Program-made: the position numbers and the translations under genes
Source of the DNA: Desulforudis sp.
GTDB taxonomy: Bacteria; Bacillota; Desulfotomaculia; Desulfotomaculales; Desulforudaceae
DNA: 64,000 nt
Direction of reading: 5' to 3'
Assembly (NCBI GenBank): GCA_003604975.1
Contig: QZIR01000062.1
Coordinates: forward strand, 1-64,000
Shown: positions 13,958 to 19,653 of the stretch, in pieces
How the letters are laid out: each line of letters starts with the position of its first letter
Position numbering within the stretch: position 1 is the stretch's first letter
Notes under the pieces: generated by a model
Database searches by the model: none
What the model was told of the DNA's origin: nothing
What the model saw: only the letters and a program-made list of their open reading frames with translations

Positions 13958-15028
13958 TCAGATGGTGTGGAAGCGGCGGAGCGCACGGCACAGATGGTAA
14001 AGGAGCGTGGTATCCCGTCCGGCAGTGTGAATCAGGTCGTGGGCCACCCATTGCAGACCCTGCTTTTTGACCTTGGGATCGGAAAGGTAGAGCGCCAAGA
14101 GACCCTTCACTACGGTACGGTGGAAGAGAGGGCGCGGGAGACCGGACACTCCGTCGAGGGCTCTGCGGACGAAGAACTGCAGCCGGTCCCGACATTCCGT
14201 GGCGTCCCGGTAGTAGCTGACGAAGTTAAGGTCGCCTCCCTGACGGTCCTCCTCCTGATCGATAAAGTAGTCCAGCAGGATGTGCAGGCCGCAAACCCAC
14301 GGGAAATAGACCGCACGAATGTGCTGGACATCGGCCGTGGTTGCTTGGGTGCGGGAAGCGGTGGCAAATAGGGCGAACATGGCCAACGTGGAGCCGGTGG
14401 CCGCGGCGAATTCCCACCAGTGGAGATCCGGATAATCATGGCGCTGTACATCAAACCAGTTGATGAGCAGCGGTTCCCGGTCACTGAGATGGGTATGCTT
14501 GTAGACCTGGAGATCCGAGTACAGGCCGACCAGTTCGATAACGTCTTCCGTGGCCAGGTGGTAAGAGGGCAGAGTCTGCAATACCGAACGGCATTGTCCG
14601 ATCAGGGCATTCAAGTAGCCTCCGTCCGCGTGGTAGGGGTAGTAGCGGTAAAAGTCCGCGATTTCGCTGGTTGGGTTGACGGCCGCAGTCATGGAGTCGT
14701 GGAGCTGCCTGAAGGCCTGCTGATCCAGGCACCCCGCCCGGTCGCACAGGTTGTCCAGGTAGTCACTGATCGTCTGCAGTGCCACGATCAGGCGCACGAG
14801 ATCCCGGTTAAACCCTCCGTAGGCAAGGGCATATACACTGCCACCCTGCGCATGGAACCGCTTGTGGCGGATACTGGCGTGGGCCTGACTGGCTAGTTCC
14901 CGGTTCCGGCAGTCGTCGAGCTTGGTGCGCCAGCGATCAAGCTCTTGCTCAACGGCCGGAAAGACCCTGGTGACCAGCCGGCTAACCAGGGCCAGCTTGG
15001 CTGGGAAGCGTGTTCGCAGTAGAGACAA
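13958..15028 (-). CDS. YtpB-type terpene synthase (DUF2600, tetraprenyl-beta-curcumene synthase-like)
   Basis: The 356-residue, all-helical protein belongs to the DUF2600 family, whose Bacillus member YtpB is the tetraprenyl-beta-curcumene synthase acting on heptaprenyl diphosphate. Two acid-rich metal-binding candidates are visible: DYLDNLCDR near residue 88 and DYFIDQEED near 255. The start is taken as TTG 15028 behind GGGAGGG; TTG 15043 is an alternative without a site. No cyclase or other terpene gene is adjacent, so the final product cannot be deduced. Homologues are found in spore formers, and C35 terpenes have been linked to spores and membranes in bacilli. Confidence 0.8.
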   Translation of the reverse strand: MSLLRTRFPAKLALVSRLVTRVFPAVEQELDRWRTKLDDCRNRELASQAHASIRHKRFHAQGGSVYALAYGGFNRDLVRLIVALQTISDYLDNLCDRAGCLDQQAFRQLHDSMTAAVNPTSEIADFYRYYPYHADGGYLNALIGQCRSVLQTLPSYHLATEDVIELVGLYSDLQVYKHTHLSDREPLLINWFDVQRHDYPDLHWWEFAAATGSTLAMFALFATASRTQATTADVQHIRAVYFPWVCGLHILLDYFIDQEEDRQGGDLNFVSYYRDATECRDRLQFFVRRALDGVSGLPRPLFHRTVVKGLLALYLSDPKVKKQGLQWVAHDLIHTAGRDTTLLYHLCRALRRFHTI

Positions 15029-15206
15029 GTCAATCCCTCCCAAGGGACAAGCAGTTACTTTTTACAGATAATACCTGATATCCTTGATAAGCATAACATG
15101 GTTAACCTGTGGGGGCAAATCAGCAAAGTGGCACGCCTCTATCTGCGGGTAAAACCAGGTGTGCACGGAAAGAATGGGGGATGAGGCTGTGTGCTGGGGG
15201 TAATCG

Positions 15207-15722
15207 ATGGAACTGAACATGCAAATAGTCTTGACAATGATATCTGCTTTGGCCGCAGTCACTCTCGCGACGATTACTATCTTCACGATGCGTGCTTCAA
15301 GGGCAATGGCTTGCCAGATGTATGAGTCACGGATGGCCCAGTTCCGTCCGTTGCTTTATCCGGTCTTGCGTGTCTACGGTCCGGAACAGCGGCGAGCCCC
15401 GGATATTCTCTTGCGGAACATCGGGCCAGGGACGGCGATGAACATTGATCTCCTTTGCCGGGGAACGGAGACCTGTTCGAATCACATCGCCTTCTTTGGA
15501 CCCGGTGACAAAGAGGAAATCCCGGTGCGCAACTGGTATCACGCGGAGGGTGGCAGTCAGGACTTAGAATTGGAAGTCCGTTTCCGGGATATCTTCAACA
15601 ACCCGATTGGCGTCAAGGCCACTTACAGCTTTGAGCTGGCGTGCGTGGGGAAGGAGCAGCTGGTGTATCCGACTGATACGCAGCTGGACGGGTACATTAC
15701 CTGCGATAAGCTGCACCTTTAA
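15207..15722 (+). CDS. Membrane-anchored protein of unknown function
   Basis: The 171-residue product starts with one transmembrane helix (about residues 6-28), then a short basic linker and a beta-rich soluble domain with NIGPGTAMNIDLLCRG near residue 73. That motif resembles the immunoglobulin-like domains in many small bacterial membrane proteins of unknown role. No named family is recognised. It is divergent from the terpene synthase gene; the gap 15029-15206 would hold both promoters. Confidence 0.6.
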   Translation: MELNMQIVLTMISALAAVTLATITIFTMRASRAMACQMYESRMAQFRPLLYPVLRVYGPEQRRAPDILLRNIGPGTAMNIDLLCRGTETCSNHIAFFGPGDKEEIPVRNWYHAEGGSQDLELEVRFRDIFNNPIGVKATYSFELACVGKEQLVYPTDTQLDGYITCDKLHL

Positions 15723-16492: not shown

Positions 16493-17131
16493 CTAGCCAA
16501 TAATGATCTGTTCCTCGGGATGCTTCAGCTTGGGTTGCTGACGCCGTCTAGGAAGGGCATAGGCGATGGTGAGTGGGCCCACGCGGCCGATGATCATGCA
16601 GATAATTACCACGATACGTCCGACTGGGGAAAGCTCCGGGGTCAGTCCCATACTAAGGCCCGCAATGCCGATCGCGGAAGTGGCCTCAAAAAAGGTGGTC
16701 AGGAAGTCGGCCTTTTCGGTGACCGAAAGAACCAGGGTGACGGTAAAGACCAGGAGCAGGAGGATGATCGCCAGAGCGGCGGCCTTATACACCAGGAAGC
16801 GGGGAACACGCTGCCGGAAGGTCTCGATTTCCTCGCTGCCCCGGTAGAGCGCGACTAGCATCAAAATGAGGATTACGAATGTGCTGACCTTGATCCCCGC
16901 CCGTAACCGAGTTTGGCCCGCCCTGATAAACATCAGGGCGACTGTCAGAAAACGTGGCGGACTGGTAGGAGTCCACGGCCACCGTGGTGAAACCGGCCGA
17001 ACGAGGTGTCACGGCCTGAAAAAAAGCGGCCAGAATTTTACCCGGCAGGGACAATCCGGCGAGGGCGTTGTGAAACTCGAGCAACAGGATGGCAAGGGTG
17101 CCGAAAAGGCCAGCAATGTTATAATGCTGGG
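16493..17131 (-). pseudogene. Decayed KtrB/TrkH-type K+ channel subunit (C-terminal half)
   Basis: Read on the minus strand, two frames together match the C-terminal half of the intact KtrB next door. One carries AGLFGTLAILLLEFHNALAG and AAFFQAVTPRSAGFTTVAVD (17120-16985); the other carries ALMFI, AGIKVSTF and the C-terminus from SAIGIAGLSMGLTPELSPVG to EEQIIIG (16933-16493). Between them the pore-loop segment is split over further frames (GGPNSVTGG is in the first frame again), so at least two frameshifts are needed. The N-terminal half is missing. It is a degenerate paralogue lying head-to-head with the intact gene. Confidence 0.8.
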
Positions 17132-17310
17132 TATACCGTCCATGCGAAGGGCAGATTAAGAGAGTGTGGCGTGTTTTCCGATGGGCGACACGTAACTCAA
17201 CACCTGAAACGGATGAGACATACATAGTGGCAAATGAATACAAGGGACCAACCCGACAACTGTTTTTTCGTGAGGGTGACCGTGCTCCATCAAAGAAGGG
17301 TTTGCGGCTG

Positions 17311-18633
17311 GTGTTGCATCAGGTGCGATCCAATCCCCCGCGGTTGTTGGTAGCAGGGTTCCTGCTGGCTATCGTCACCGGTACCATACTGCTGAGCACT
17401 CCCTGGGCGACCCGGGATGGAAGCACCGATTTAATGATCGCGCTCTTTACGGCCACTTCAGCAACTTGCGTTACAGGGCTGGTCGTAGTGGATACGTGGG
17501 ATCACTGGTCTATTTTCGGTCAGCTTGTGATTATGCTCCTGATCCAGGTCGGTGGTCTCGGGGTAATGGCTTTTGTAACCCTCTTCGCCCTCTTGCTTGG
17601 TAAACGGATTCAGTTGCGGGACCGGTTAACTCTCCAAAGGGTCTTGGGTAAGACTTCGATGGAGGGCATCGTACGGATTTTTCGATACATTCTGTTGTTT
17701 TCATTTACTATGGAGGCACTGGGTGCAATTATCCTCTCCCTTAAGTGGATACCAGTCATGGGTGCTGCGCAAGGAGTCTGGTTCGGCGTCTTTCACGCTA
17801 TCTCGGCCTTTAACAATGCCGGATTCGACCTTTTTGGAGGGTTCCAGGGACTCACCGGGTTTACCGGGGATCCCGTCATCAATATGGTCATATCGGGGAT
17901 GTTTATCGTGGGTGGCCTCGGATTCGTGGTCGTCTATGAAATCTACCATTATCGGGAGACGCGGAGGCTGTCTCTCCATTCCAAAATTGTTCTACTCGTA
18001 ACGGCCATCCTGATCCTAACCGGTACACTGGTAATCCTGGTGTCCGAGTATAACCATGCCCTGCGCGACCTTTCTCTGTCCGGGAAGCTTATGGCTTCCT
18101 ACTTCCAGGCAGTTACTCCACGGACGGCCGGGTTCAGTACCCTGGACATGGACTCCCTATTACTGCCTACGCAGTTAATGATTATGTTCCTGATGTTCGT
18201 GGGCGGCTCACCGGGCTCTACAGCAGGAGGTATCAAGACCTCGACCCTGGCTTTGTTAGGGATCGCCATCGTAAGCATTATTCAGAACCGGAGGGAAACG
18301 CATGTGCTTAACCGAAGGATTGAGGCGGCTGAGGTGTCACGGGCGCTGGCCATTGCACTACTCGGAATGCTCTTGATCTTCGTGGTTACGTTCCTGATTT
18401 CTTTTGCCCATCCGGGAGATTTCTTGCGTGCCCTCTTTGAAGTGGTGTCCGCTATAGGTACCGTGGGGCTTTCCTTGGGACTTACCCCTGAACTGGATGA
18501 CTGGGGCCGGATTCTGATCACGGCGACGATGTTCCTGGGGCGCCTCGGGCCGCTAACCATTGGATATGCGTTAGCCTACCAACGCAGACAGCCCAACCTG
18601 CGCTATCCGGAAGGTAAGATCATGATTGGTTAA
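17311..18633 (+). CDS. ktrB: KtrB/TrkH-family potassium uptake channel subunit
   Basis: The roughly 440-residue membrane protein has the four repeated pore units of the TrkH/KtrB superfamily, with selectivity-filter segments such as TSATCVTGLVVVDTW near the first pore, SAFNNAGFDLFGG in the second, TPRTAGFSTLDMD in the third, and SAIGTVGLSLGLTPEL in the fourth. It imports K+ together with a KtrA-type RCK subunit, which is not encoded in this window. Start choice is difficult: GTG 17311, 10 bases after AGAAGGG, gives the usual KtrB length, whereas the open frame extends upstream to 17164 with no better ribosome site. The C-terminal IMIG matches the IIIG end of the neighbouring pseudogene. Confidence 0.88.
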   Translation: MLHQVRSNPPRLLVAGFLLAIVTGTILLSTPWATRDGSTDLMIALFTATSATCVTGLVVVDTWDHWSIFGQLVIMLLIQVGGLGVMAFVTLFALLLGKRIQLRDRLTLQRVLGKTSMEGIVRIFRYILLFSFTMEALGAIILSLKWIPVMGAAQGVWFGVFHAISAFNNAGFDLFGGFQGLTGFTGDPVINMVISGMFIVGGLGFVVVYEIYHYRETRRLSLHSKIVLLVTAILILTGTLVILVSEYNHALRDLSLSGKLMASYFQAVTPRTAGFSTLDMDSLLLPTQLMIMFLMFVGGSPGSTAGGIKTSTLALLGIAIVSIIQNRRETHVLNRRIEAAEVSRALAIALLGMLLIFVVTFLISFAHPGDFLRALFEVVSAIGTVGLSLGLTPELDDWGRILITATMFLGRLGPLTIGYALAYQRRQPNLRYPEGKIMIG

Positions 18634-18655: not shown

Positions 18656-19653
18656 AGAACTTAGTGCCGGGCGGAATGGCGTTCGCGGTGATGACATCGA
18701 CCAGTGCCGGTCTGTGCGCGTCGAGGGCCTCCCGCAGTACTCCGGCCAGCCCGCGGGATGCTCCACTTGGATCCTGGTCACAGGCGGTTTCGATACTCAT
18801 TCGCTCCTGTCAGTCCCCGCGAAGCATTTCGATGGTCGTGCGCCAATTAGCTCGGGGGTTGTCCGGAAGCTGGTCCGTAAGGCGGGGCAGAATCTGGCCA
18901 ACATCTCCAACAATCCCGTAGTGCACCGGTGTCTGGACCCCGATGTTGGCTGGTTCGAAGTCGATTTGATACCGGCAGGGAGCGGGGGGCATAGTCTCCG
19001 GGCCACCAGGTGGCGCCGGCCACCTGGCAGAGGTCGGCCCGGGCGATGGCGTTGGCCGCCGGATCTTTACCCGCCAGGCCGAGACGGCCAAGAACCAGAG
19101 GATGGGAATAGGAACGACGCCGGTGGCCGGCATTGTGTGGATGATTCCCGCGCCCCACTTTTCAGCGAGTACAGTAAGCTCGGCGATACCCCGGTGTTCC
19201 GCGTCCGGCCAGGATTACCGGCCGTTGGGACCGGTTCAGGATGGGCAGGACACCGTCGATGACCTTAGGCGGTGAAGCCGGATGGGTGTGTAAATAGGGC
19301 TCCGCGGGGCGGATGGCGGCCGGGGAAACGGTGGTGAACAGATCCATGGGGATGCTGATGTGGCTGACCATGCGCCTGGTCAAGGCGGCCTTAATGGCCT
19401 TGGTCAGAACCTCCACCGTACTCTGCGGATTGGCCAGCATGGCGGTGTAGGTGGCAAAAGGCCGGTAGAGGCTCAGGTGATCGAAGTACTGCTTATGGTT
19501 TGTACCGACGTACCAGCTCTCGACCCGGCCAGCAATCACCAACAGCGGCACCCGGTCTTGGGCCGCGTCCCCCACCACACCAAAGACGGCGTCGATGCCC
19601 CACTCGGCGAGCTGATCGACCACCGTCTTGGCTACCGTTTGCTGTTTGGGCAC
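18654..19653 (-). pseudogene. Decayed thiamine-diphosphate enzyme (pyruvate oxidase/acetolactate synthase-like)
   Basis: The minus-strand start at 19653 encodes VVDQLAEWGIDAVFGVVGDA, a typical N-terminus of this family, then jumps in frame to RVPLLVIAGRVES, so a segment of roughly 60 residues that normally holds the catalytic Glu region has been deleted. The middle domain continues to VILAGRGTPG at about 19180. After that the match moves through other frames, and the last recognisable piece is EALDAHRPALVDVITANAIP with its stop at 18654-18656. Deletions and frameshifts make this a non-functional remnant of a POX/ALS-type enzyme. Confidence 0.8.

Follow-up and report, generated by a model that had tools for sequence, protein, structure and literature searches.

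In the literature consulted, most descriptions of class IB large terpenes concern bacilli, in which the compounds are associated with spores and membranes. The occurrence of a DUF2600 (YtpB-type) gene in a Desulfotomaculales bacterium near Desulforudis raises the question of what such an enzyme makes in an anaerobe, and whether its product leads on to the polycyclic sesquarterpenes of Bacillus, as a preliminary description of the locus had implied. The window, i.e. the whole stretch of 64,000 nucleotides analysed, is part of contig 2 of a 3.14-Mb draft genome (75 contigs, 99.4% complete). This genome contains a gene for the spore-former marker SpoIVA (E 1.2e-119), and the host is probably a spore-forming anaerobe; for a co-occurrence test SpoIVA is uninformative, since it is present in 93 of 100 relatives. 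The gene and its upstream region comprise the following features:

13958..15028, minus strand: DUF2600 / class IB large-terpene synthase, 356 aa, TTG start at 15028, stop ending at 13958 (PF10776, PDB match, model)
15036..15041, minus strand: ribosome-binding site GGGAGG, 7 nt before the TTG start (sequence)
15061..15100, minus strand: upstream stretch partly conserved with the same-genus genome G001, CATGYTATGCTT and ATTATCTGTAA (pairwise alignment)

The frame agrees exactly with the preliminary description, which did not state that it lies on the minus strand. At the place aligned with the ribosome-binding site, G001 carries GGAGG (pairwise alignment), and the conserved stretch further upstream is a possible promoter of the DUF2600 gene. 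A consensus promoter scan detected no minus-strand sigma-70-type site; its single sigma-70-like site lies on the plus strand (0.9 expected), and it also returned two terminator-like sites, where 1.6 were expected. Rfam, tRNA and PADLOC scans of the window gave no matches.

The encoded protein matches PF10776 (DUF2600) with 458 bits (cut-off 25, E 1.6e-137) over all 328 profile positions, which bears out its description as a full-length YtpB-type synthase; the B. subtilis control for this profile was positive. No NCBIfam profile matched up to E 1, and the only PDB sequence matched is that of BalTS (5yo8/6loo/6lop, E 1.6e-84). Both acid-rich motifs noted earlier are intact:

14741..14764, minus strand: first aspartate-rich motif DYLDNLCD, residues 89-96 (sequence)
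14246..14272, minus strand: second motif DYFIDQEED, residues 253-261 (sequence)

They fit the class IB pattern DYLDNLxD and DY(F,L,W)IDxxED given in PMC7839719. The first motif is present in 101 of 102 DUF2600 proteins scanned, the sole protein without it presumably being a 116-aa fragment (L214). In an alignment of 101 rows, made up of 100 DUF2600 loci and BalTS, residues D253, Y254, I256, D257, E260 and D261 of the second motif belong to the columns with a conservation of 97% or more; there are 64 such columns, and the window protein keeps all of them. At the 90% level it deviates in a single column, I143, where BalTS also has isoleucine. Mutated metal-binding aspartates in homologues, named beforehand as an argument against an active enzyme, were not encountered, the motif aspartates being conserved. 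An alignment of 33 sequences served for an AlphaFold model (pLDDT 94.1), which shows the class I terpene-synthase α-domain fold of BalTS and can be superimposed on 6loo with an r.m.s.d. of 1.7 Å over 342 residues (Z 47.4; Z 47.1 with 5yo8). The structure entries next after BalTS, class I diterpene synthases from actinomycetes, follow at Z 19.2. Judged by its sequence and predicted fold, the protein is probably a class IB terpene synthase with activity. The gene is retained at 81% identity in the same-genus genome, and the eight sampled genomes of family f1 (G000-G007) as well as G008 all carry DUF2600 over profile positions 1-328 without stops. The observation of the gene is real, chance being excluded; the gene is an intact but unremarkable representative of a common class IB family and no rarity.

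Three PF00348-related genes were found in the host genome. One encodes a farnesyl diphosphate (FPP) synthase (NF045485, 358 bits, above cut-off). The second is of HepT type, with TIGR02748 as the best of 16 models (341.7 bits, below the equivalog cut-off of 456.55), and the third encodes a HepS-like protein of 248 aa (PF07307, 21.8 bits, below the cut-off of 30). The HepS-like gene is situated in an apparent operon with genes for a MenG-type methyltransferase, a UbiA/MqnP-type prenyltransferase, MqnE, an MqnA-type protein (PF02621) and MqnC, and the genome has a futalosine menaquinone gene cluster. The heptaprenyl diphosphate synthase for which a search had been recommended was thus found, as a HepT-type gene and a weak HepS-like subunit below their cut-offs, and a long-chain prenyl diphosphate synthase is not missing from the genome. 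Because the HepT-type synthase, the weak HepS-like subunit and the menaquinone cluster are present, a C35 prenyl diphosphate is likely to be available in the host. The substrate of the window synthase is likely this pool, shared with menaquinone as in B. subtilis, where a C35 diphosphate pool common to the terpene and menaquinone routes is described in passages of PMC8144471. On contig C49 of the host genome, upstream of the HepT-type gene and with two frames between, lies a gene for a geranylgeranyl-reductase-family protein (L215:1552-2685, plus strand; TIGR02032, 222.7 bits, cut-off 158.8), which might saturate prenyl chains.

We consider it probable that the window gene encodes a working class IB synthase of the YtpB/BalTS type, which converts a polyprenyl diphosphate, most likely C35, to tetraprenyl-β-curcumene or a linear β-prene as the last product of the branch. 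C35 heptaprenyl diphosphate would be made for menaquinone by the HepT-type synthase together with the HepS-like protein, and the window synthase would take an all-trans polyprenyl diphosphate, most likely this one. Mg2+ held by the two aspartate-rich motifs would lead to ionisation of the substrate, and the cation would be quenched as tetraprenyl-β-curcumene, with one ring, or as a linear β-prene. The hydrocarbon, placed in the membrane or the spore envelope, would probably be a branch end, because no squalene-hopene-type cyclase was found: the 99.4%-complete draft genome gave no PF13243 match at E ≤ 0.001, the B. subtilis control being positive. The earlier statement that no cyclase is adjacent was right, and the recommended search for a squalene-hopene cyclase-like gene was negative for the genome as a whole. 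Since no such cyclase was detected, the genome lends no support to the Bacillus end product; the window product is probably an unfused hydrocarbon, either tetraprenyl-β-curcumene or a linear β-prene, and not one of the known Bacillus spore lipids.

A product without cyclase could still be useful. Linear β-prenes of C25 and C30 are made by BclTS, and of C25, C30 and C35 by BalTS (passages of PMC11070974). YtpB converts heptaprenyl diphosphate to tetraprenyl curcumene, and in B. subtilis without the spore glycan layer this compound alone makes the spore surface hydrophobic (passages of PMC11708026); sporulene has also been tied to spore resistance (excerpt of PMC13123705). A role of the synthase product without a cyclase is plausible by analogy, because BclTS and BalTS make linear β-prenes and tetraprenyl curcumene alone alters the spore surface; a spore role of the window synthase itself would be borrowed from Bacillus.

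The chain length of C35 assumed in the preliminary description is likely but not demonstrated, given that the solved homologue BalTS accepts all three substrates. It is rather unlikely, though to be taken seriously, that C35 is not the main chain and that a shorter substrate (C25 or C30) is turned into a linear β-prene such as β-hexaprene. The linear products of BclTS and BalTS agree with such a reaction, and the HepT-type protein of the host is recognised by NF045628 as well, the model for the large subunit of hexaprenyl synthase (266.6 bits); since the HepS-like and the HepT-type protein both lie below their cut-offs, there is room for C30. However, the heptaprenyl model outscores the hexaprenyl model by 341.7 to 266.6 bits. 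Two members of the order, Desulfotomaculum acetoxidans and D. ruminis, contain MK-6 as a minor quinone, but in both MK-7 (C35) is the main menaquinone (passages of PMC3035247 and PMC3569383).

A further clue to the substrate comes from gene order in relatives. The set used, which is not random, was formed by the best 80 of 589 relatives of the window protein and 26 contexts of the order, in all 106 DUF2600 loci, reduced to 101 after five duplicates were dropped. A polyprenyl diphosphate synthase gene adjoins DUF2600 in at least 50 of these 101 loci, a lower bound for the set as some loci end at a contig edge. The linked gene is convergent at the 3' side in 39 cases, upstream on the same strand in 10 and otherwise placed in one; the distance is at most 150 nt in 38 of the 50 and at most 3.5 kb in 49. 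Chance alone would give linkage within 3.5 kb at about 0.8 of 101 loci, if 3.5 such genes are assumed per 3 Mb and the loci are treated as independent, which they are not. Loci with the linked synthase include Moorella, Thermanaeromonas, Syntrophomonas, Thermotalea, Geosporobacter, Fervidicola, Pseudobacteroides and Dethiobacter.

Both DDxxD motifs are kept in 49 of the 50 linked synthases, and the residue five positions before the first of them is alanine, as in the HepT type, which as a rule goes with medium or long chains. A first tree set the 50 linked rows against 36 HepT-type and 7 FPP-type rows of order genomes; for a second, the motif-less L196 was left out, 9 of these 43 rows were kept, and ten of the DUF2600 genomes contributed a further 19 unlinked paralogues. 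The 49 motif-bearing linked synthases fall on one side of a branch (96/85) and the 28 unlinked HepT- and FPP-type paralogues on the other, a single-clade result that depends on sampling, with long branches in both trees. The ten genomes all have further copies besides the linked gene. A HepT-type clade member is present in all of them but Pseudobacteroides, and an FPP-type clade member in nine; in the tenth, Syntrophomonas palmitatica, the other match is in two pieces and stood outside the tree. Pairwise distances of linked synthase and DUF2600 correlate with r 0.82 over 49 loci, a value reached in none of 2000 permutations, for which shared descent alone could suffice. The linked synthase is thus an apparent dedicated supply enzyme for DUF2600, separate from the HepT of menaquinone synthesis. 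Since 49 of the 50 linked synthases belong to a clade other than HepT, the ancestral DUF2600 substrate may have been other than C35. No dedicated supply enzyme is named among the literature matches listed, which mostly do not cover subscription journals, and a terpene-mining paper on aerobic spore-formers mentions neither DUF2600 nor curcumene. This module of the relatives, rather than the window gene, is the interesting part that deserves work.

The DUF2600 tree unites the window family with GB_MAG19_121 and G012 in a single clade (100/98) that has G012 at its base, and the synthases of the Desulfofundulus family and of family f14, which belong to the same order, group with Moorella, apart from the window clade. 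The linked synthase was found at 4 of 26 order loci examined (the 27th carrier, G066, stood outside the set), and three of the four keep both motifs. The fourth, in G012 (L196:11001-11903, plus strand), is a complete frame of 300 aa, convergent with DUF2600, which has neither DDxxD motif and matches the linked-synthase profile with E 5e-71, its own row being part of that profile; this homologue is possibly a pseudoenzyme or a non-catalytic subunit. No linked synthase is present in the window or in the family f1 loci fetched, one of which, L190, extends for 911 bases beyond the gene. A search of L189-L220 with a profile of the linked proteins detected no remnant beyond the four linked order loci, and otherwise returned only HepT-, FPP- and HepS-type genes of G000 and G002. 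The HepT- and FPP-type proteins of the host lie outside the linked clade. Loss of the partner synthase in the window lineage is the simplest reading, with an intermediate shown by one genome, G012, the only representative of its family in the sample.

Taken further, these arrangements allow a tentative proposal, somewhat less likely than not. Many anaerobic Bacillota may possess a cyclase-free two-gene pathway of their own, consisting of DUF2600 and a paralogous polyprenyl diphosphate synthase; the window lineage would have lost the partner via a G012-like state and would now draw on the menaquinone pool, and the products would be widespread C25-C35 hydrocarbons of anaerobes. A description of such a hydrocarbon class of anaerobes was not found in the literature search.

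The surroundings of the window gene offer no operon or partner genes, as the flanks hold no functionally telling neighbour. On one side lies a NitT/TauT-type importer, on the other an orphan 171-aa protein and a GyrI-like protein, and the window has these flanking genes in common mainly with G001 and GB_MAG19_121. The orphan (15207-15722, plus strand) has an N-terminal hydrophobic stretch by eye and no Pfam match; a relative with 43% identity in GB_MAG19_121 is also divergent beside DUF2600. Further along the window, an intact TrkH gene (17164-18633, plus strand, E 5.4e-61) stands beside a minus-strand region, 16493-17243, that contains a TrkH-type C-terminal part (16493-16933, PF02386, E 5.9e-13) and a second frame, by eye the upstream part of TrkH, with no Pfam match; this region is probably a broken second TrkH copy. 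A short frame at 19162-19653 (minus strand), which looks like a remnant, covers just the last part of the N-domain of TPP enzymes (PF02776, profile 83-118 of 119).

Neighbours at other loci give hints of the cell envelope. In the Desulfofundulus family DUF2600 mostly stands close behind a D-Ala-D-Ala-ligase-type gene on the same strand, and the DUF2600 gene of Syntrophomonas UBA5432 (L068) lies behind a MurT-type, a GatD-type and a linked synthase gene. Independently of this, in G092 of family f14 a gene for LPG_synthase_TM (flippase-like, PF03706; L213:3602-4624, plus strand) adjoins DUF2600, and similar-looking frames follow in L210 and L211. It is unlikely that diphosphate removal itself is the useful act, by which heptaprenyl diphosphate would be drained and the undecaprenyl carrier of cell-wall synthesis spared, the hydrocarbon being a by-product. 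For the B. subtilis ytpB mutant, passages of PMC8144471 attribute the bacitracin phenotype to accumulation of heptaprenyl diphosphate and not to loss of the terpene. Within 3.5 kb, a D-Ala-D-Ala-ligase-type gene is found at 11 of 101 loci (10 on the same strand), and on the same strand the MurT-type cluster at 6 and the GatD-type cluster at 7 of 101, the domains having been checked on one member of each cluster. However, an adjoining prenyl synthase able to make the substrate, as present at 50 of 101 loci, argues for the product as the purpose, and the window has no cell-wall neighbour.

Whether the Bacillus pathway is nevertheless complete depends on the cyclase. DUF2600 was found in 27 of 100 genomes of the order, the host included, two of them (G031, G066) with fragments only. 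A full cyclase (E < 1e-80) is present in 10 of the 100 and in none of the 27 DUF2600 carriers, which do not need one; strict avoidance is not claimed, with P = 0.036 by genome and 0.092 by genus, uncorrected for kinship. Weak PF13243 matches (E 1e-16 to 1e-3) occur in many order relatives, some of them DUF2600 carriers. One of these, L119 of G066 (529 aa; 67 bits over profile positions 155-314), is not a full cyclase; the others are presumably repeat matches. A phylum sample of 159 genomes at least 90% complete (DUF2600 at E ≤ 1e-20, cyclase at E ≤ 1e-40) contains DUF2600 in 64. The rarity of this terpene class in anaerobes, as suggested previously, may apply to the chemistry published so far, whereas the gene itself is not rare. 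Three genomes of family f26 (G157, G199, G235) show a DUF2600 profile match split near position 95-100 within one frame of 529-708 aa, so that these genes appear to hold an inserted or appended region.

It is very unlikely that an unrecognised cyclase completes the pathway in the host to a polycyclic sesquarterpene of the sporulene or baciterpenol type. In B. subtilis YtpB and SqhC act in sequence (passages of PMC11708026), and all three cyclase-bearing genomes of the phylum sample carry DUF2600 (P = 0.063), a tendency opposite to that in the order. Against this stand the negative PF13243 search of the host, the same result at E ≤ 0.001 in its same-genus relative, and 61 of the 64 DUF2600 genomes of the phylum sample without a match at E ≤ 1e-40. 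Likewise, 47 of 50 DUF2600 genomes reached via loci outside the order have no match at E ≤ 1e-15, the other three being Paenibacillus/Cohnella (Paenibacillaceae 3 of 5, others 0 of 45). The two-step Bacillus route is an exception in the phylum sample, and the synthase without cyclase is usual among the sampled carriers. Finally, a catalytically dead remnant, for which the sole argument is the solitary position of the gene, many relatives having a linked synthase, can practically be dismissed in view of the 64 of 64 highly conserved columns, the two intact motifs and the full-length gene in 8 of 8 sampled family f1 genomes.

If anaerobes, relatives of the deep-subsurface Desulforudis included, make such terpenes without the cyclase, they would possess a route that needs neither hopanoids nor oxygen for adding hydrocarbons to membranes or spores. 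A bacterial origin would then be conceivable for C35 hydrocarbons with one ring or none in anoxic sediments. In Moorella, Geosporobacter and Syntrophomonas, the linked synthase provides a testable handle on substrate chain length.

Large terpenes for membranes are made in other bacteria by the hopanoid pathway. Its squalene-hopene cyclase was not found in the host genome, and the ten order genomes with a full cyclase all do without DUF2600. From the two-gene module of its relatives the window differs by the missing adjoining synthase, with the paralogues of the host outside the linked clade. YtpB of B. subtilis, the tetraprenyl-β-curcumene synthase and first step to sporulene and baciterpenol, belongs to the same Pfam family, the likeness being one of family membership. 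The host likewise has HepT-type, HepS-like and menaquinone genes and SpoIVA; in contrast to the YtpB system, its genome has no SqhC-type cyclase, and no YtpA-type gene stands directly beside the window synthase. The class IB β-C25/C30/C35-prene synthase BalTS of Bacillus alcalophilus comes from a host outside the Desulfotomaculales and is 38-39% identical to the window protein, with homology over nearly the full length, the same two motifs and, at 1.7 Å over 342 residues, the same fold as the predicted model.
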